Below, in pieces: positions 7,659-61,594 of a DNA stretch of 64,000 bases. This stretch comes from Anseongella ginsenosidimutans (GTDB taxonomy: Bacteria > Bacteroidota > Bacteroidia > Sphingobacteriales > Sphingobacteriaceae). Position 1 is the first letter of the stretch. Every line of letters begins with the position of its first letter. The DNA lies in the NCBI RefSeq assembly GCF_008033235.1, contig NZ_CP042432.1, positions 682,001 through 746,000 of the forward strand, read 5' to 3'. The notes under the pieces were generated by a model. The model had not been told where the DNA came from and did not search any database. It saw only the letters and a list, made by a program, of their open reading frames with translations. The position numbers were made by a program, and so were the translations under genes.

Positions 7659-10600
7659 TTATTTCCGCGATTTAAGACTGCTTAGGTAGGCGACCAGGTT
7701 CGCCAACTGGTTTTTTCCCATTGCTTGCCCAAGGCCGGAGGGCATCAGGGAATGCTCATAGCTTTCCCTGGAAATAATATCCGCCGTTTGCAGTTTATGC
7801 GTCTGGCCGCCAATGCTGCGCAGGGAAACTTCTGCAGCGGTTTCGCCGGTGATATAGCCGGTCAGGCTGCTGCCGTCTTTAAGGTGAACGGTATATCCCT
7901 CGAATCCGAAATTAATGCCTTTGTCCGGGTAAATGATGGCATCGTACAGGGCTTCTTCGGAAAGTTTAGCGCCTATTTCAGAAAGTTCCGGCCCGAATTG
8001 TATTCCTTTTCCGTTTATTACATGACAGGAGCTGCACCAGGCGGTAAAAACAGTTTCTCCCGCTGTAATGTCTCCGTCAATACTGAGCAGGACGGACATT
8101 TCAGGAAGAGGCTCCGCTTCTTCGCCTCCCTGGTAAAAGGCACGCGCCCTTGCGAGTACGTCAGGCCGCCAGGTGGAGGTGAGTATTTCACGTGCCAGTG
8201 TTTCGAATTGAGAGGGTAACCGGTCCGTTTCGGCCAGCAGCATCAATTTGTCACTGCCGGTCCAGGTGGCGCCCAGGGAATTAAGCGCTTCCCGGCGAAG
8301 GTCTTCGCTAAAATTTTCTTCCAGGATAATACGCTGCAGCTCTTTAAAAATGCGGTCGTCGTCGGCTTCCTTCAGCAAGCCAGCCAGGAGCAGCGAACCT
8401 TCGTCATCGCGGTCGATCACCGAACGGATGTCGCCGGTAAGGTCCAGGTTCACTATCGTATTCAATGCATTCTCACGCATTTCCTGCCCGGCAAGCGTAT
8501 CCAGGGCGATTTCCATTAGTTCAGGAGACTTCCCTTTGAGCTGAAAGCGGGCAACGAGATGGATGTACTCCGGTTCGCCCTCCAGGTCCCGCAGGCTGTT
8601 CTCAATGGCCTGGCTCATGGCAAAAGTCTTAGGAAGGCTTTCCGGTTCGGCCAGCATCAGCGCATAGGCGGCTGTTCTTTCGCCAGCGTCCTGTTTCCTG
8701 ATAAGAGACAGCAGTATTTCCTGCTTTTGTTTTCCCTTATGGAATTCAATGGCCCGGAAAAGCTGCCTTCTTTCTTCATCACTGATTTCCCTGGCAGCGG
8801 CCATTTCTGCCAGCAGCGGCAGCGCCATTGCGGAGCCGGATCGCCACACGATCTTTTTGCCGGCCGGGGAAGCAGGATCGCCGCCGTTTTCCAGCCAGGC
8901 CGAAAAGCAGGCATCCGGGTTATTTTCCGCGGCTATGCCCAGGGCTTCAAGATACCAGGGGTCGCGGCCGTCATAATGAGATGCGAACCGGGCCCATAAT
9001 GCGGGCATTTCCGGGGAATTTACGTAATGCATAGCAACCAGGGCCGTGCGGCGGACCAGCGGGGAAGGATCATCCGCCACTTTTCCGAGTACATCTACAA
9101 GGTCAAGGTCCATTTGCCGGGCTGCGCGGACGGCTGCTGCCCGGATCCTTTCGTCACTGTCTGCAAGCGCCAGCTCCAGGTAGTGCTTCCCGTTCTCCGG
9201 CAATTTGCTAAGCAACCATAAAACCCGTGCCCGCAGCCGGGATTCCGGTGAAGCTACTTCGCGTGCGGATGATTCGGACGGCGAACTTACCGCCGGCCCG
9301 CCGGCAGAGTTGCCCGGCATCGTCCGATGCGAAGAAGTAAAGGCCTTACTGAGCGCCGGTTCGGCCCGGTTTCCCATTTCGTGCAAGGCTGTCCATGCCA
9401 GATAGCGAACGGACTGCGCCGGGCTTGCCAGCGCTTTTACCGCGGCTTCCGGCCTATCAAATGCGGATTGTTCCGGGCGGTAAGCATGCCCCTTTGGCGC
9501 AATACGGTAGATCCTACCAAGTTCCACGTCACCCGCACGGTGCCCGCCCACACCCGGATCGTACCAGTCGGCGATCATGAGGGAACCGTCCGGGGCGGCG
9601 CAAACATCCACCGGGCGGAACCATTTATCTTCGGTTGAAAAAAGCAGGTTAGCCCGGGTTGCTTTGAAACCGGCGCCATCGGGACTAACCGGATAAACGC
9701 GCACCGCGTTCATGCCCGCTTCCGCGTGAATAAGCTGTCCCCTGTATGCCTCGGGAAGCAACTGCCCTTCGTACATGCACAGCCCTGAGGGCGATCCGGC
9801 TCCGTTTACCAGCAGGTTGGGAACTACTCCCGGGTCGGTCTGATGCCAATGCCGCAGGGGAACGGAGTCTTCGCGGTTGATCCGCCAATCGCCCCACCAG
9901 GCGCCGGTCAGCTCGTCAGAGTAGCCGTAATTGCCGTACTCCATCACATAATTCACGCGGGTGCTGCGATTGCCGTCATCGTCATTATCCGTTTGCCAGA
10001 CACTCCCGTAGGAATCCACAGCCAGTTCATAAGGGTTCCGGAAATTATGCCCGATTACTTCCAGTTCCGAGCCGTCGGGGTTACAGCGAAAAGCCATGCC
10101 CTGACGGTACGGCTCCCCTTCCGCACTGATTAGGCGGCCGAGCGGATCGTATAAAGCTTTCCCGTTTTTGTCCAGGATCGTCTTCCCCTCATTCCCGAAA
10201 TTAAAATATAATTTGCCATCCGGCCCGAAAACAAAGGCATGAACAGCATGGTCATGCTGCTTGCCGCCGATGCCGGTAAATAGTAATTCTTTGGTGTCGG
10301 CTTTGTCGTCTCCATCGGTATCTGTCAGCAGGTACACACCCGGGCTGCAGGAAACAATTACCTGCCTGCCCAGTACCGCGATCCCCATAGCGGAATTAAT
10401 AAGCGTATCCTGGTAAAAAACTTTCGCGGTATCCGCCCGCCCGTCCTGGTCCCTATCCTCCAGTATCACAATGCGATCTCCGTTTTCACGGTAAGGATTC
10501 TCCGTATTCAGCCAATTGCGATAATTCCAGCCCTCCGTAACCCAAACCCTGCCCCTGGCATCCACATCCATATTAGTAGGATTACTCACCAAAGGCTCAC

Positions 10601-10772
10601 TGGCAAAAAGCGTCACCTCCAACCCATCCGCCACATCCAGCGCCTCCAGCCCTGCCTCCGCCGAAAACGGCTCACGCTCCGCCGAACCATCTTTCGCCCC
10701 GCGTCCACAAGAAAAAACCATTAAAACCCCAGGCAGAAGTAAGCTGTAGAAAATACACTTATTCATATACAA
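7659..10772 (-). CDS. PVC-type membrane-bound dehydrogenase with HEAT repeats and C-terminal cytochrome c domain (lipoprotein)
   Basis: This 1037-residue protein opens with a lipoprotein signal (Cys22 in MVFSCGRG). Next comes a beta-propeller of the PVC-type glucose/sorbosone dehydrogenase-like family (about residues 40-430), with NPTNMDVDARGRVWVTEGWN and DHAVHAFVFGPDGKLYFNFG. An armadillo/HEAT-like helical region covers about residues 440-880. A cytochrome c domain follows, with one CxxCH heme site in AWCSSCHVINGKG and a distal Met in HSLMPSGLGQ. It should sit on the periplasmic or outer face and pass electrons from sugar-like substrates. The substrate is unknown. The start could be Met1 or Met3. 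Confidence 0.85.
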   Translation of the reverse strand: MYMNKCIFYSLLLPGVLMVFSCGRGAKDGSAEREPFSAEAGLEALDVADGLEVTLFASEPLVSNPTNMDVDARGRVWVTEGWNYRNWLNTENPYRENGDRIVILEDRDQDGRADTAKVFYQDTLINSAMGIAVLGRQVIVSCSPGVYLLTDTDGDDKADTKELLFTGIGGKQHDHAVHAFVFGPDGKLYFNFGNEGKTILDKNGKALYDPLGRLISAEGEPYRQGMAFRCNPDGSELEVIGHNFRNPYELAVDSYGSVWQTDNDDDGNRSTRVNYVMEYGNYGYSDELTGAWWGDWRINREDSVPLRHWHQTDPGVVPNLLVNGAGSPSGLCMYEGQLLPEAYRGQLIHAEAGMNAVRVYPVSPDGAGFKATRANLLFSTEDKWFRPVDVCAAPDGSLMIADWYDPGVGGHRAGDVELGRIYRIAPKGHAYRPEQSAFDRPEAAVKALASPAQSVRYLAWTALHEMGNRAEPALSKAFTSSHRTMPGNSAGGPAVSSPSESSAREVASPESRLRARVLWLLSKLPENGKHYLELALADSDERIRAAAVRAARQMDLDLVDVLGKVADDPSPLVRRTALVAMHYVNSPEMPALWARFASHYDGRDPWYLEALGIAAENNPDACFSAWLENGGDPASPAGKKIVWRSGSAMALPLLAEMAAAREISDEERRQLFRAIEFHKGKQKQEILLSLIRKQDAGERTAAYALMLAEPESLPKTFAMSQAIENSLRDLEGEPEYIHLVARFQLKGKSPELMEIALDTLAGQEMRENALNTIVNLDLTGDIRSVIDRDDEGSLLLAGLLKEADDDRIFKELQRIILEENFSEDLRREALNSLGATWTGSDKLMLLAETDRLPSQFETLAREILTSTWRPDVLARARAFYQGGEEAEPLPEMSVLLSIDGDITAGETVFTAWCSSCHVINGKGIQFGPELSEIGAKLSEEALYDAIIYPDKGINFGFEGYTVHLKDGSSLTGYITGETAAEVSLRSIGGQTHKLQTADIISRESYEHSLMPSGLGQAMGKNQLANLVAYLSSLKSRK

Positions 10773-10819
10773 CAGTTTAGGTCAATCCATTTCGCCACCC
10801 AAACCCGCGAGGCCGCAGG

Positions 10820-10900
10820 CAAGCGAAGCGAAAACCAAGTCCAAAGCCCCCGCGCGAAGCGAAGCGAAAGCACGAATCCGTCCGGTGGTAAGCGAAGCGA
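10820..10900. repeat. cluster of GCGAAGC motifs upstream of the cytochrome lipoprotein
   Basis: The heptamer GCGAAGC occurs at 10823-10829, 10854-10860, 10859-10865 and 10892-10898. It lies in phrases close to AAGCGAAGCGAAA repeated about every 35 bases. GCGAAGC is known as an unusually stable DNA mini-hairpin (GC stem, GAA loop). The same heptamer recurs at 44.39-44.51 kb and, inverted, in the palindrome at 61520. Function unknown. Confidence 0.6.
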
Positions 10901-10919
10901 AACCACAAATCAAAAACAA

Positions 10920-11178
10920 GCCTTGTTATTTTTGTTCCTGGCAAAGCCGGGCAATGTGAGCGTAGCAGCGCTTAAGCACCATGGATATCACGTTTGTAAT
11001 ACCAAGTCTTGGTCTTTCCGCCCGTCCTTCTTCAAAAAACTTCTCCATAGCGACTGCTATGCAGAAGTTTTTTTATTTTCGTCCGGAACGAAAATACCGG
11101 CGACTTATATTACAAAACCGCGATATCCGTGGTGCTGTGACCATTTGCCCATGCCGCCAGGGGCAAAAAGAACAAGGC
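10920..11178. repeat. large imperfect palindrome (about 259 bp) between infB and the cytochrome gene
   Basis: The left arm from 10921 (CTTGTTATTTTTG...) and the right arm ending near 11176 (...CAAAAAGAACAAG) pair along much of about 85 bp. The best-matching part is GCACCATGGATATCACG against CGCGATATCCGTGGTGC, continuing into TTTGTAATA/TATTACAAAA. The centre holds a second tight hairpin (11031-11074, arms AAAAACTTCT and AGAAGTTTTT with ATAGC/GCTAT) and a third (ATTTTCGT..ACGAAAAT, 11075-11095). The right end lies four bases from the infB stop. It could act as the infB terminator, a structured RNA or a mobile palindrome. No protein is encoded that I believe. Confidence 0.7.
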
Positions 11179-11181
11179 GTA

Positions 11182-13641
11182 TTATAACTTGCGTTTTATT
11201 TGGACCTCTTCGTACCCCTCAATAATATCTCCCGTTTTGATATCATTGAAGTTCTGGATATTCAAACCGCATTCGTAACCTGCGGTAACTTCCTTCACAT
11301 CTTCCTTAAAGCGTTTAAGTGAAGCAAGTTCCCCGGTATAAACCACGACCCCGTCGCGGATCAGGCGTACATTCGTGTTACGGGTAATCTTTCCGTCGAG
11401 GACCATACACCCGGCCACAGTACCCACCTTAGTGACTTTAAACGTGTCCCTGACTTCCAGGTTACAAACGATCTTCTCTTCTACATCCGGCGTTAACAAG
11501 CCTTCCATTGCGGCCTTTATTTCCTCGATGGCCTTGTAAATTACGGAGTAGAGGCGAATATCAATTTCTTCCTGCTCGGCAAGGCGGCGGGCCTGCGGGG
11601 AAGGACGTACCTGGAAACCAAGTATGATTGCATCGGAAGCCGAAGCCAGCAATACGTCCGATTCGGAGATCTGACCTACTGATTTATGGATTACATTGAT
11701 CTGTATCTCTTCCGTTGACAGCTTCAACAGCGAGTCGGAAAGCGCCTCCACGGATCCGTCCACATCGCCTTTCACGATCAGGTTCAGTTCCTTGAAGTTG
11801 CCGATCGCAAGACGGCGGCCGATTTCATCAAGTGTAATATGTTTTTGCGTACGTAAACCTTGCTCGCGCTGCAGCTGCTGACGCCTTGTAGCTATGTCTT
11901 TTGCTTCCTGTTCGGTTTCAACCGCGTTAAAACGGTCGCCGGCCTGCGGCGCACCCTGCATGCCTAATACCTGCACAGGAGTAGCCGGCCCTGCCTTCTC
12001 TATCTTCTTTCCGCGTTCATTGAATAAGGCCTTGACACGGCCGCTGAACTGGCCTGCCAGAATGGGCTCGCCGACCCGCAGTGTACCCGCCTGGATCAAT
12101 ACGGTGGTTACTACGCCCCTTCCTTTTTCCATGGCCGCCTCAATGACGGTACCAAGGGCTTTTTTCTCAGGATTGGCTTTCAGGTCAAGAAGCTCTGCCT
12201 CCAGCAATACTTTGTCAAGCAGATCATCGACGCCCATACCTGATTTTGCGGAGATTTCCTGGGTCTGGAATTTTCCTCCCCACTCCTCCACCAGGATATT
12301 CATGTTTGCGAGCTGTTCGCGGATCTTGTCCGCGCTGGCTCCCTGCTTGTCCATTTTATTGAAAGCAAAGACCATCGGTACTCCTGCAGCCTGCGCATGG
12401 TTAATGGCCTCAATGGTTTGCGGCATCACGCTGTCATCGGCTGCGATCACGATAATTACCACGTCGGTCACCTTTGCTCCCCTTGCACGCATGGCGGTAA
12501 AGGCCTCGTGCCCCGGGGTATCCAGGAACGTGATCTTGCGGCCGTCGTCCAGGCCTACTTCATAGGCGCCGATATGCTGGGTAATACTCCCGGCTTCACC
12601 CGCAATTACGTTCGCTTTCCGGACATAATCCAGTAAGGAGGTTTTACCGTGGTCAACGTGTCCCATTACCGTAACAATAGGATGGCGGCCAACGAGATCT
12701 TCCTCCGCGTCTTCTTCTTCCAGCAGATCGTCCTGATCGTCGGAAGTAATAAAGTTAACGTCAAAACCAAATTCGCCGGCAACAATACTGATGGTTTCCG
12801 CATCCAGGCGCTGGTTAATGGAAACGAACAAGCCCAGGCTCATACAGGTGGCGATGATCTGCGTAACAGATACGTCCATCATGCTGGCCAGCTCATTAGC
12901 AGTCAGGAATTCCGTTACCCGGAGTACCTTTGACTGTAATTCCCTTTCCTGCTGTTCCTCTTCAGCCACCCGGGCAATATCGTCCCGCTTCTGGCGGCGG
13001 AGACGGGCCCGTTGTGCGAATTTCCCGGATTTACCGGCGCCGCTCAGGCGGGCAAGCGTAGCCTTGATCTGCTCCTGCACCTGCTTCTCATCCACTTCCT
13101 CTCTTTCCTTGCCCTTACGGTGGTGATCTTTGGCGCCGGTCTTGCCCGGCTTATTATCTTTAGACGGATGCTGCTGGCCGGTACTTACCGGAGCTACCGT
13201 TCCTTTTTCCCTGCGTTTCCGCTTCCGCTTTCCTTTCTCCGGCTGACCCGAAGAAGAAGCGACCGGCTTGGATTTTCTTTCCGCCGGAAGCTCGATGCGG
13301 CCGATTACTTTCGGACCTGTAAGACGGCGGGCTGTGGCTCTGATCACTTCCCGTTTATTGGGATCTTCTTTTCCCGGTTCAGCATCGGCAGGAGCGGGAG
13401 TTGCGGCTTCCGCCGCCGGCTGTTCCGCAGGAGCTGCTTCTTCCGTCGTTTCCGGGGAGGTCTTTTCCGCGCTTTCCGCAGGAGCCTCCTCCGCACTTTC
13501 CGGGGCGGTTTTTTCCGTACTTTCCGCGGGAGCAGCTTCTTTTGCTGTTTCAGCCGGAGTTTCCGCCGGCGTTTTCTCCGCACTTTCCGCCGTGGCTGCC
13601 GGCTGTTCCTTTTCTTGTTCCGGCGCCTTTTCTTCCTTCAC
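11182..13641 (-). CDS. infB: translation initiation factor IF-2, main part; frameshifted near its N-terminus
   Basis: These 819 residues carry everything known to be essential in IF-2. After a Glu/Ala/Lys-rich linker comes the IF2_N-like segment ([17 protein letters not shown]). The GTPase follows with G1 [13 protein letters not shown]3 DTPGHEAF, G4 NKMD and G5 SAKSG, and then domains II-IV. The factor delivers initiator tRNA to the 30S subunit. The true gene starts at 14243 with the lysine-rich N-terminus and this frame continues it after a one-base deletion, giving about 1020 residues. Last gene of rimP-nusA-infB. The ATG at 13641 is an internal codon. Confidence 0.93.
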
Positions 13642-13772
13642 AGGCGCCTGTTCGGCTTTGGCCTCTTCCTGTTTCGGCGCTGCTTCCGCCTTTTCAGGCT
13701 TTGGAGCTTCTTCAGCTTCCTTTTGAACAGGTTTCGGTTTTTTGCCCAGCGCGTCGAGGTCTATTTTCCCTA

Positions 13773-14243
13773 CTATTTTCGGCCCCCGCTTCTTGGCCTT
13801 TCGGCTGCACCGGTTGGCTCTTCCTTCTCCGGCTTTTCCTCTTCCACGGGCGGAGCAGGCGTTTCTTCCTTTTTCTCCGGTTCCGGTTGCTGAACCTTTT
13901 CCGGTTTGGTCATGCCTGCAGAGGAAGCCGTATTTTTAATAAGGATCTCTTCCTGTTCGTAATCATCGCCGCTGCTCTTGGCGGCCTTTACCTCGTCAAT
14001 GGATACGTCCTCACGGCGGGCACGGCCAATATGGATCTGCGTAGCTTCTTCGCGGTATATCTTATCGGTCTGATATTCCTTTAGCAGCAACTGGTAAAGA
14101 TCGTCGCCGATCTTCGTATTGGGCCTTGCCTCAACCGGGTATCCCTTATCGTCGAGGTAATCAACAATAGTGGTGATACTTACGTTAAGTTCCTTGGCTA
14201 CTTTTAGTAATTGATATGTTTTCTTGTCTTCAGACATTAGCAA
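13773..14243 (-). CDS. infB: translation initiation factor IF-2, N-terminal part; frameshifted
   Basis: This 156-residue frame is the start of infB: an IF2_N domain ([20 protein letters not shown] and [16 protein letters not shown]) followed by a Lys/Glu/Pro-rich linker. It runs off into RSGGRK-stop. Restoring one base, either in the TTT at 13799-13801 or the C5 run at 13783-13787, makes it read on through [16 protein letters not shown], the conserved Bacteroidota IF-2 motif, into the main part at 11182-13641. It begins 14 bases after nusA in the same operon. Start candidates are Met1 and Met3. IF-2 is essential, so the break is probably a base-calling error. Confidence 0.88.
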
Positions 14244-39154: not shown

Positions 39155-39490
39155 ATGATCATCGTCAGTAAATGGTTCCTGTATATTTTCACGTTCGCCT
39201 TCGCGGACGCCATGGCCCTTTTCCCTTTCATCATTCTTCGGTCCCGGGCTCTTAACGGCAACAGGGAGCTGATCATGCATGAAAGAATACACCTTCGCCA
39301 GCAGGCGGAAATGCTTGTCATCTTTTTCTATCTATGGTACCTGACGGAATACCTTCTCAGAAGGCTTCGCGGGAACGGTCATATGACTGCTTACCTGGGC
39401 ATTTCGTTCGAACGGGAAGCCCGGGCGCATGCCCGCAACCCGGCTTACCTGGCCTCGCGGAAATTCTGGGCTTTCCTTGCCTGGATCTGA
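39155..39490 (+). CDS. small membrane protein with an HExxH motif
   Basis: This 111-residue protein has a hydrophobic N-terminal helix (residues 1-28), then MHERIHLRQQAEM containing HExxH, a second hydrophobic helix (FFYLWYLTEYLL) and SFEREARAHARNP with a Glu placed as a possible third zinc ligand. It looks like a minimal membrane-embedded metallopeptidase core of the type found in M56 proteins, conserved as a short orphan in Bacteroidota. Catalysis is unproven. It follows xth by 20 bases. Confidence 0.7.
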   Translation: MIIVSKWFLYIFTFAFADAMALFPFIILRSRALNGNRELIMHERIHLRQQAEMLVIFFYLWYLTEYLLRRLRGNGHMTAYLGISFEREARAHARNPAYLASRKFWAFLAWI

Positions 39491-39591
39491 CACCGGTGCT
39501 GCGTTAAGCGGGAAGGCTTGGCGCTGCAAGTTCAGGCTTAACGCAACGCCAGTGTGGTGAATACTAAAATTCATTCACCACACTGGTTCGA

Positions 39592-43219: not shown

Positions 43220-44089
43220 ATGAAAAAACTATTGTTTCTGGCCTTTATGTGCCTCATATGCGGGAAAACTTTTTCACAGGGTATCACCATTCCCGGTCTC
43301 TCACATCCTGAAAGCGTCACATATGACGGCAAATTTTACTATGTATCCAATATCGGGACCGAACCCAACCCCACAGCGCAGGACGGCGACGGCTTCATCA
43401 CCAAGATTTCGGAAGACGGCCTTATCCAGGACAGGCTGTACATTCCAAGGAGAGGAAAACTGGACGCTCCAAAAGGGATGTGCGTCATTGGAAAAATATT
43501 GTTTGTGACCGATATCAACAAAATATACGGCTTCTCGCTTAACAACAAGCGCAAAAAAGTTTTCGAGATGGAGATCCCCGAAAGCAATTTTCTGAATGAC
43601 CTGGAGCCATTGAACCAGCACGAAATACTTGTTTCAGCCCCCGACGTAGACGCCATTTTCAAGATAGATGTACTTCAGAAAACCTATCAGCGGCTGGATA
43701 TTGAAGGAACGGTAAACGGTCCGAACGGAATGGCTTTTGACGAAGCGAACAATACGCTTTATGTAGTCGGGATAGGCACTAATAATGAGCCGAACGGACA
43801 ACTCGGCCGGGTAAAGCTGGACTCTTCCAGTGTACAATACGAAATTCTCAGCGACTACAAAGGCCACCTCGACGGCATATTCATTTACCAGAATACCCTG
43901 GTATTCACCGACTGGGTAAAATTCGGCGAAAATGTCGGCGCCCTAAAACGGCTGAACCTGGATACTAAAGAAGTAACGGAAATCGTAGGTAAATTAAAAG
44001 GCCCCGCGGATATCTACTACAATTACGAGAAAGGCCAGCTTTGGATGCCTATGATGATGGGGAATCACGTTTTTAGAATGGACTATTAA
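43220..44089 (+). CDS. secreted SMP-30/gluconolactonase-like beta-propeller protein
   Basis: This 289-residue protein has a signal peptide (MKKLLFLAFMCLICGKTFSQ) followed by blades of a six-bladed propeller: ESVTYDGKFYYVSNIG, PKGMCVIGKILFVTDINKIYG, GPNGMAFDEANNTLYVVGIG and GPADIYYNYEKGQLWMPMM. The metal-site residues of lactonases cannot be verified by eye. Closest description is an SMP-30/gluconolactonase/LRE-like protein in the periplasm. The stop codon lies inside a perfect hairpin. Confidence 0.78.
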   Translation: MKKLLFLAFMCLICGKTFSQGITIPGLSHPESVTYDGKFYYVSNIGTEPNPTAQDGDGFITKISEDGLIQDRLYIPRRGKLDAPKGMCVIGKILFVTDINKIYGFSLNNKRKKVFEMEIPESNFLNDLEPLNQHEILVSAPDVDAIFKIDVLQKTYQRLDIEGTVNGPNGMAFDEANNTLYVVGIGTNNEPNGQLGRVKLDSSSVQYEILSDYKGHLDGIFIYQNTLVFTDWVKFGENVGALKRLNLDTKEVTEIVGKLKGPADIYYNYEKGQLWMPMMMGNHVFRMDY

Positions 44090-44123
44090 GCTATTAAAGC
44101 GGCGAGCCGCTTTAATAGCTTAA
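44086..44123. terminator. perfect 18 bp hairpin containing the stop codon of the propeller gene
   Basis: TTAAGCTATTAAAGCGGC and GCCGCTTTAATAGCTTAA pair without a mismatch around the two-base loop GA. The TAA stop of the upstream gene is part of the left arm. There is no T-tract; a role in transcript ending or 3' protection is inferred. Confidence 0.6.
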
Positions 44124-44520
44124 GGTTTAAGGTTCAAAGTTCAAAGTTCAAAGTTTCAAGTTTCAAGTTTTTAGTTTCTAGTTCAGGGTTTCTAGCTTGA
44201 AGTTTTTAGTTTAAGGTTTAAAGTTCTTAGTTTAAAGTTCCCGATTTCTGGTTTGAAGTTCTTCGTTCAGGGTTCAAAGCCGAAGCAGGCTATTTGAACC
44301 CTGAACTTTTAAACCACTACATTGACCCCACAGGGAACTTGAAACCGTCGCGCAACACCCCTTGAAACTTGAACTTTGAACTTTTGCGAAGCAACCCGTG
44401 CGAAGCACTCTTGAAACTTTGAACCTTAAACCTGAAACTGTTGCGAAGCAACCGCACGAAGCACGTTTGAAACTAAAAACTTTAAACTTTGAACTGTTGC
44501 GAAGCAACAAACTTTGAACT
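44124..44520. repeat. dense short-repeat region between convergent genes
   Basis: No gene is seen. The left half repeats words such as GTTCAAAGTT, GTTTCAAGTTT, TTTTTAGTTT and GTTTAAAGTTC. The right half uses their complements, AACTTTGAAC and CTTGAAACTT. Between them GCGAAGC mini-hairpins occur at 44386, 44400, 44443 and 44499, three inside larger palindromes (TTGCGAAGCAA, GTGCGAAGCAC, GTTGCGAAGCAAC). The region could fold into a long branched structure. Confidence 0.65.
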
Positions 44521-44562
44521 GTTTCTCTTCAAACGGTTGTTCGCAACCGTTTGAAGAGAAAC
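44521..44562. terminator. perfect 19 bp hairpin with TTCG loop abutting the efp stop
   Basis: GTTTCTCTTCAAACGGTTG and CAACCGTTTGAAGAGAAAC pair completely around the tetraloop TTCG (44540-44543). The right arm ends at 44562 and the efp stop codon occupies 44563-44565. It is probably the efp terminator, though a T-tract is lacking. Confidence 0.65.
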
Positions 44563-59899: not shown

Positions 59900-61447
59900 A
59901 TGCAGGAAACAACAATTTTATGGGCCGATGACGAGATCGACCTGTTAAAACCCCATATTCTCTTTCTGAACGACAAAGGCTATAAAGTAAAGACTGTTAC
60001 CAATGGAAGCGATGCCCTGGACGCTATAAAAACCGAAAACTTCGACCTTATTTTTCTTGACGAAAACATGCCGGGGCTTACGGGCCTGGAAACGCTGGCG
60101 GAAGTAAAAAGCCTGAGAGCGGATCTGCCGGTAGTGCTGATTACCAAGAACGAAGACGAACCGGTGATGGAAGATGCCATCGGCGCCCAGATTGACGATT
60201 ACCTGATCAAACCGGTAAACCCTAAGCAGGTGCTGCTGACCATTAAAAAGATACTTGACAATAAACGGCTGGTAACGGCCAAGACGACTTCTGCCTACCA
60301 GCAGGATTTCATGAGCTTGGGCCTGACCCTGAACGATAACCTTTCATTCGACGAGTGGACAGAAGTATACAAGAAGCTGATATATTGGGAGTTGCAACTT
60401 GACCGGCTGGAAGACACGGGCATGCTGGAAATCCTTACCCAGCAAAAGGCGGAAGCAAACATGCAGTTTTCCAAGTTCGTCGAAAAAAATTACCTGAAGT
60501 GGGTGCAGCATCCTGAAGACGGCCCCACTATGTCGCATAATCTCCTCGCCAACAGAGTCTTCCCGCTCCTGGATGACACCCCTACTTTTTTTGTCCTGAT
60601 AGATAACCTGCGTTATGACCAGTGGAAGGTTATCCAGCCCATCATCTCCGAATATTTTCGTTTTGAATCCGAAGAGTGTTATTACAGCATTCTGCCCACG
60701 GCCACGCAATATGCCCGTAACGCCATTTTCTCCGGCCTGATGCCCCTGGAGATGGAAAAGCAGTATCCGAATATCTGGCAAAACGACGAAGATGAAGGCG
60801 GTAAGAATATGTATGAGGAAGACTTCCTGTACTCCCATATTCAGCGGATGCGCAAACCCGTCAAGTTCAGCTACACCAAAGTGCTGAATTATGAAGCCGG
60901 CCGGGAATTAATGGAGAACGTTCACAACATCCTGGGGAATTCCTTAAACGCGGTGGTATATAATTTCGTTGACACGCTCTCCCATGCCCGCACAGAAATG
61001 GAGATCCTGAAGGAACTGGCCTCCGATGAAGCAGCCTACCGTTCCCTGACGCTCTCCTGGTTTGAACATTCCCCCTTACTGGACGCCCTGAAGCGAATTG
61101 CCGATAAGAAAGTGCGCCTCATCATTACTACGGATCACGGGACCATACGGGTAAGAACTCCGAGCAAAGTGATCGGCGACAGGAACACCAATACCAACCT
61201 GAGGTACAAAACGGGCAAGAACCTGGCATTTGACGCAAAAGATGTCATGCATATCCGCAATCCCCATGAAGCGCTCCTGCCGCGGCAGCACGTAAGTTCC
61301 AGCTATATTTTTGCAAAGGAAGACGAATACTTTGTTTACCAGAACAATTACAACCAGTTCGTGCAGTATTACCTGAATACTTTTCAGCACGGGGGGATCT
61401 CGCTGGAAGAAATGATCATTCCGTTTGCTATCTTCAGCAGCAAGTAA
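59900..61447 (+). CDS. porX: PorX, response regulator of the type IX secretion system with PglZ domain
   Basis: This 515-residue protein has a receiver domain (residues 1-120) with the acidic pair DDE at 10-12, the phospho-acceptor Asp54 in LIFLDENMPG and Lys in YLIKPVNP. A helical linker follows, then a PglZ/alkaline-phosphatase-like domain (about 225-515) with Asp235 in VLIDNLRYDQW, the nucleophile Thr267 or Thr269 in ILPTATQYARN and metal residues in VDTLSH and TTDHGTIRV. It regulates type IX secretion with the kinase PorY and the sigma factor SigP in Porphyromonas. The partner genes are not in the window. Confidence 0.93.
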   Translation: MQETTILWADDEIDLLKPHILFLNDKGYKVKTVTNGSDALDAIKTENFDLIFLDENMPGLTGLETLAEVKSLRADLPVVLITKNEDEPVMEDAIGAQIDDYLIKPVNPKQVLLTIKKILDNKRLVTAKTTSAYQQDFMSLGLTLNDNLSFDEWTEVYKKLIYWELQLDRLEDTGMLEILTQQKAEANMQFSKFVEKNYLKWVQHPEDGPTMSHNLLANRVFPLLDDTPTFFVLIDNLRYDQWKVIQPIISEYFRFESEECYYSILPTATQYARNAIFSGLMPLEMEKQYPNIWQNDEDEGGKNMYEEDFLYSHIQRMRKPVKFSYTKVLNYEAGRELMENVHNILGNSLNAVVYNFVDTLSHARTEMEILKELASDEAAYRSLTLSWFEHSPLLDALKRIADKKVRLIITTDHGTIRVRTPSKVIGDRNTNTNLRYKTGKNLAFDAKDVMHIRNPHEALLPRQHVSSSYIFAKEDEYFVYQNNYNQFVQYYLNTFQHGGISLEEMIIPFAIFSSK

Positions 61448-61450
61448 AGC

Positions 61451-61594
61451 TTAATTTTCCCCTTCGAAGGCGGTTTTGATATTTCCGTACTCGCTCAGGC
61501 TGATTTTTGAGGTTCAATTGCTTCGCAATTTCCCTCAAAAATCAAACATCGCTGCGTGCGGAAATATCAAAACCTTGTTTCAGTGGAAAATTAA
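61451..61594. repeat. long imperfect palindrome behind porX (arms about 62 bp)
   Basis: Left arm 61451-61512 begins TTAATTTTCC and contains GGTTTTGATATTTCCG and CTGATTTTTGAGG. The right arm ending GGAAAATTAA at 61594 carries their complements in reverse order. The centre is a smaller hairpin AATTGC-TTC-GCAATT. It starts four bases after the porX stop. A third, decayed inverted copy of the left-arm core (AAAAATCAGCTCGAGCGAGT) lies at about 61656-61676. No gene is encoded. Confidence 0.72.

Follow-up and report, generated by a model that had tools for sequence, protein, structure and literature searches.

The giant palindrome behind infB in Anseongella ginsenosidimutans looks like two nested copies of a small mobile repeat

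The window analysed here, a stretch of 64,000 nucleotides of the Anseongella ginsenosidimutans genome, includes a giant imperfect palindrome that directly adjoins infB. In the list of open reading frames, the stop codon of infB is at 11182-11184 on the minus strand, and the outer stem of the palindrome, as read from the sequence, pairs 10920-10934 with 11164-11178, in agreement with both the coordinates and the setting given in an initial annotation of the window. The other neighbour of the palindrome is a gene (7659-10772) co-oriented with infB, the product of which includes DUF7133, HEAT and cytochrome c domains. Between this gene and the palindrome, at 10800-10910, there are three short hairpins that by eye share the inner part TTCGCTTCGCTT and differ in their stems; units like these also flank two of the loci described below, L038 and L040. 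infB itself is split into two open frames on the minus strand, 11182-13641 and 13773-14243, which are in different frames. In G001, a genome from the same genus that is 92% complete and in 230 contigs, infB is a single open frame of 1035 residues. The split in the window, at 13641-13773, would be due to either a frameshift or a sequence error in the low-complexity linker.

The stretch 10900-11200 is predicted to fold with -122.3 kcal/mol, as compared with a mean of -70.6 kcal/mol (sd 5.4) for 100 shuffled versions, none of which was as stable (z = -9.6). Aligned with gaps to its own reverse complement, 10916-11185 scored 89. In a scan of 200-bp windows, the infB-end palindrome scored 67, and a Markov-shuffled 464-kb genome sample peaked at 35. 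An ungapped repeat finder detected only the innermost 18-bp arms (11034-11051 and 11056-11073) because the long arms contain bulges. As judged by the fold and by the self-complementarity relative to the shuffles, the giant imperfect palindrome is real. Palindromes are a familiar cause of assembly trouble, but chance or an assembly artefact can hardly account for this one, given its z value and the diverged copies of the same architecture found elsewhere in the genome. This genome is not special in having large palindromes as such, since a permissive survey (score of at least 38) found more loci in genome G045 than here (28 vs 18), with lower maxima in G045. This general survey served for comparison with shuffles only, as its strict gap scoring missed the giant palindrome and its more permissive listing was noisy.

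The initial annotation described two nested central hairpins, which is right in substance; more exactly, they are two nested copies of one element (Table 1). The inner hairpin was recognised as a copy of the core by the covariance model R1 described below. The stretch around this inner core matches two further copies of the element, L043 (73% over 109 bp) and L042 (72% over 111 bp), which have total lengths of 164 and 165 bp, and the interruption of the outer copy, read by eye as 10973-11136, has a length of 164 bp. Given these matches and the equal length, one copy holds a full element, oppositely oriented, in its apical loop. On sequence comparison, the infB-end hairpin thus resolves into two nested copies of one small repeat, and is an example of how nesting of small repeats can yield palindromes far larger than a terminator.

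Table 1. Positions in the window of the parts of the infB-end palindrome, of infB and of related hairpins.
Feature	Position	Strand	Evidence
Outer stem, infB-distal arm	10920-10934		Pairs with 11164-11178; sequence and fold; flank-pairing score of 9 for the outer copy
Outer core copy, left arm, tip interrupted	10926-10972	+	Pattern match with 0 mismatches; in alignment A1
Inner full-length element (core and shell), ~164 bp, orientation opposite to the outer copy	10973-11136	-	Self-complementary at 10975-11136; exact ends by eye
Core copy within the inner element	11011-11097	-	45.1 bits, E = 5.5e-11, filters off; also a whole-genome model match
Outer core copy, right arm	11137-11172	+	Aligned with other copies in A1; region 11139-11169 vs L100, 87% over 30 bp
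Outer stem, infB-side arm	11164-11178		Sequence and fold
infB main open frame; stop codon 9 bp from the outer core	11182-13641	-	ORF; Pfam IF-2, GTP_EFTU, IF2_N
Small hairpins, a neighbouring pair, with a relationship to shells A and B; the core is missing or deleted	39490-39586		Inverted repeats I4 and I18; shell A pattern match L033; likeness to shell B by eye; not present in G001

A search for further copies, proposed as a check at the outset, was carried out in the genome itself (4,322,684 bases, 4.32 Mb, one contig) and established that the palindrome is not unique. With blastn, the left arm of the outer copy matches five further places. A 19-base arm pattern with up to three mismatches gave 12 matches, as against none for the reversed control; by inspection, eight of the 12 lie in uninterrupted imperfect palindromes of ~85 bp, one is the window copy and one is a half copy (L014, the same as L050). 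Two pattern matches, L016 and L020, appear unrelated on inspection and were rejected as family copies. The covariance model R1 was built from the first nine pattern-match stretches (alignment A1), including the outer window copy. Its 19 rows of matches, six of which are the opposite strand of the same places, correspond to 13 distinct places in the genome, 11 of them with E <= 1e-8, one with 0.0085 and one with 0.34. Eight of these places were members of the model, and the five that are independent of its building scored 64 (L046), 45 (inner window copy), 44 (L048), 25 (L049) and 19 bits (L050). As a whole, the outer window copy escapes detection because the model is unable to span the inner element; the left arm taken by itself has an E value of 0.062 under R1. 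Counting the outer copy raises the number of core copies to 14. With 13 places by the model, the core is a short, non-coding, interspersed multi-copy sequence, as a MITE is.

The copies take two forms, the core within a shell and the core only. Shell-bearing copies are ~165 bp long with the ends TAGTG...CACTA, and their shell is of type A (TAGTGYTGYGTTAAGC...) in L042 and L043 or of type B in L041, L046, L048 and L050. TA was seen by eye at both ends of L041-L043, there being no exact empty site for comparison. In the core-only copies (L038, L039, L040, L044, L045 and the outer window copy), the stem around the core is different each time and the ends differ at each site. Decayed and shortened copies of the shell A element are also present.

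All six core-only copies lie right behind a stop codon, five of them between convergent reading frames. The core starts 5 bp behind the stop codon at L038, L044 and L045, 8 bp at L040, 9 bp at infB and 14 bp at L039, and its polarity relative to the gene is the same in all six. At L038, L040, L044 and L045, the stop codon by eye forms part of the stem, and at L039 and infB there are a few bases between the two. The strength of the pairing between the flanks of each core was expressed as a score, which is 11 for L038, 8 for L039, 12 for L040, 14 for L041, 12 for L042, 13 for L043, 11 for L044, 7 for L045, 15 for L046, 10 for L048, 9 for the outer and 15 for the inner window copy, and 4 for both L049 and L050. 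A score of at least 10 was reached by nine of the 14 copies vs 0.6% of random genomic pairs, and one of at least 7 by 12 copies vs 13% of random pairs, the other two being short or half copies. When the flanks of the six core-only copies were re-paired, only the true pairing among the 720 tried reached the observed sum; with all 14 copies, which are not independent as the shells share ancestry, none of 20,000 did. Strong stems were counted at 16 of 373 gene ends in the G000 sample, 15 of 887 in G001 and 39 of 274 in G045, with none in the shuffled version of each. Long hairpins near stop codons are therefore general in these genomes, and such a position is not peculiar to the repeat family.

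The distance of 5-14 bp from the stop codon and the constant polarity are also what might be seen if the hairpins were kept for the transcript, as a terminator, RNase barrier or processing site, the family being one of structured RNA elements at 3' ends. This alternative is considered improbable. Pairing is conserved between the copies, and A-runs and T-runs of at least five bases flank the apical stem in several cores (e.g. L038, L040 and L041-L043), as do A6 and T7 at the inner hairpin of the window, but L039 and L044 have no such runs. Moreover, shell-bearing copies occur elsewhere too, L042 lying between divergent reading frames, and the short copy L049 has the opposite polarity. An Rfam scan of the window at the gathering score gave no match, and a terminator scan of 10700-11300, the loop and stem limits of which are unfit for this structure, gave one site vs 0.8 expected. 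The mispairs, counted by column on the other strand, comprise ten G-U and six A-C columns and therefore do not single out one strand as a kept RNA. On the gene strand, 11 stretches together have 15 G-U vs 47 A-C mispairs (printed p 6e-5), mostly at the same inherited positions, and no claim of a strand signal is made from these counts. By these scans and counts, structured RNA and processing site are no more than possible roles of the palindrome.

Beyond its own genome, the repeat was not detected. The palindrome was found by blastn in none of 40 relatives, and the core by the covariance model, under stricter filtering and with as many as 74 candidates per genome scored, in none of 60 other genomes of the family. 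G001 is among these 60 and lacks the core at all seven loci that were compared (infB, L038, L039, L050, L040, L045 and L049). At infB, its spacer is ~100 bp long with a small predicted hairpin, vs ~415 bp here. At L038 and L045, its convergent stop codons are 2 and 3 bp apart, vs ~390 and ~270 bp here. In plasmid and phage collections, which may omit records of the genome itself, a distant-mode search gave no match. A loose left-arm pattern gave eight stretches in genome contigs and two in viral contigs; these ten loci were treated as chance and rejected as family copies, R1 giving one weak match (E = 0.25) that is not at the place of the pattern. The repeat thus appears to be species-restricted, as judged by the 60 genomes and the seven matching sites in G001. 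A lack of conserved pairing in relatives combined with the absence of a transcript had been named beforehand as grounds for abandoning the initial proposal; of these two, the former was observed. With one relative, the flanks of which are ~70-85% identical, gain of the core here is indistinguishable from its loss in G001.

The initial annotation also noted compensating differences between the arms and took them to suggest selection on the structure or an old inverted insertion. In the alignment of nine cores, two-sided changes occur in 13 of the 28 pairs, and the share of cells that pair is 93.2%, values that none of 500 shuffles and no slid version reached; the structure was derived from the same alignment, which gives it an advantage over slid versions, and relatedness alone can lift copies above shuffles. 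Compensation is therefore confirmed between the copies in this genome and not between species, as the element was found in no other genome searched. Its cause could lie in correction of palindromes at the DNA level rather than in selection, through template switching at the fork, a mechanism named in PMC6649704, the outer stems being copied from the gene end onto the far flank after the arrival of the core. This is a serious possibility, rated somewhat below an even chance; it bears on how the pairing came about and does not conflict with the core being a mobile repeat. The flanks of the six core-only copies pair with their own partners and not with those of others, as it would have them do. 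At L045, the adjacent stop codons of G001 leave no room for a hairpin, and the last residues before the stop are alike, so that the arm beside the gene seems old and the far one new; the close stop codons of G001 at L038 point the same way. On the other hand, two near-invariant T-G mispairs in the core (in 8/9 and 9/9 copies) have been left uncorrected, and G001 may have lost sequence. In addition, at both L039 and L040 the same gene is followed by a hairpin in G001 too, which suggests that older hairpins may exist. The one at L039 shares GATGTT with the stem here, a comparison made uncertain by an extra reading frame in the spacer here.

Copies that are repeated, decayed, nested and restricted to one species point to a non-autonomous mobile repeat. 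Among the initial suggestions, that of a palindromic mobile element is therefore favoured, on the basis of the 13 places, the absence at seven of seven G001 loci and the copy inside a copy. The palindrome probably represents two copies of a non-autonomous, MITE- or REP-like palindromic repeat that has spread in A. ginsenosidimutans. It looks like a mobile repeat and not like a feature specific to infB, for which it is most likely a passenger that at most gives the transcript a bulky 3'-end hairpin. Several observations count against mobility. The genome has no match to either of the two transposase families sought (Y1_Tnp and DDE_3), and neither an exact empty site nor a target duplication can be demonstrated with G001 flanks of this divergence. 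The 13 places are few for an active family, and the location of the core-only copies would fit a functional 3' element too.

The nearest known kinds, by analogy, would be MITEs and pneumococcal repeats. Bacterial MITEs are 70-300 bp long (PMC3733652), and the repeat resembles RUP, NEMIS/Correia and ERIC in its size range, in being non-coding and interspersed beside genes, in its strong hairpin and, for the ~165-bp form, in its matching ends. It is unlike them in that no parent transposase was found among Y1_Tnp and DDE_3 and in that its core-only copies have locus-specific outer stems and no common terminal repeats. The pneumococcal BOX, RUP and SPRITE are small repeats that cluster and insert into one another (PMC10969869); BOX may provide a stop codon, and SPRITE lies close to gene ends (PMC3049150). 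The likeness to these, drawn from their descriptions, extends to small size, clustering, mutual insertion and location at gene ends, whereas SPRITE consists of an 18-bp duplex and a T-rich tract and the palindrome here is larger and bulged. REP elements are imperfect palindromes found mostly downstream of genes (PMC3733652), as the extragenic repeat is here, and could be mobilised by a RAYT, a Y1 tyrosine transposase. Such an origin is very unlikely, since Y1_Tnp has no match in this genome while five of 14 control genomes respond, the copy number is low, and the core of ~85 bp exceeds the REP unit of 20-40 bp given in that source and by eye has no unpaired GTAG/CGTC-tagged end. A reading of the palindrome as an integron attC site was set aside on general anatomical grounds, attC sites having R and L boxes at the foot of the stem and an accompanying integrase gene.

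The half copy L050 resembles Rickettsia palindromic elements in being placed in frame where a reading frame starts; in-frame insertion is seen here once, with a truncated copy. This half element (L050 1500-1600) is at the N-terminal end of the reading frame, and the G001 ortholog is without it.

If the palindrome is a mobile repeat, a core copy of ~85 bp would have come to lie directly behind the stop codon of infB, and a second, full-length copy (core and shell, ~164 bp) would have entered the tip of the first in the opposite orientation. The copies would have spread by transposition, and hairpin tips behind genes would be favoured or tolerated sites. The locus-specific outer stems may be older gene-end hairpins invaded at the tip, which the general occurrence of strong stems near gene ends makes possible. 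Alternatively, the flanks may have been made complementary after insertion by templated quasi-palindrome correction, to which the comparison of L045 with its hairpin-free sister sequence leans.

A notable feature of the core is how regularly it is central in another palindrome. It may be a mobile palindromic DNA that either inserts at the tips of hairpins already present or generates matching arms for itself when it lands. This idea is put forward as doubtful, on the grounds that 12 of the 14 copies have flanks pairing with a score of at least 7 and lie at gene ends, within shells or within another core. If true, and with Y1 and DDE_3 both absent, it would amount to a hairpin-directed mode of spreading not described before. 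Nothing describing a core with locus-specific outer stems was found in the titles and opening parts of abstracts of the papers listed by literature searches, which argues only weakly for novelty. A single core combined with many different outer stems, each matching, would make a natural set for distinguishing mobile repeats that aim at hairpins from cells that complement the flanks.

Two other palindromic regions were observed in the window. At 44080-44562, low-complexity arrays with many small hairpins of the GTTGCGAAGCAAC type have on either side a perfect hairpin of 18-19 bp located at a gene end and gave 124 blast matches in the 464-kb sample. A second giant palindrome, with a score of 65, occupies 61451-61594 and starts 4 bp behind the stop codon of the gene at 59900-61447; part of the sequence that follows it recurs in the genome sample.
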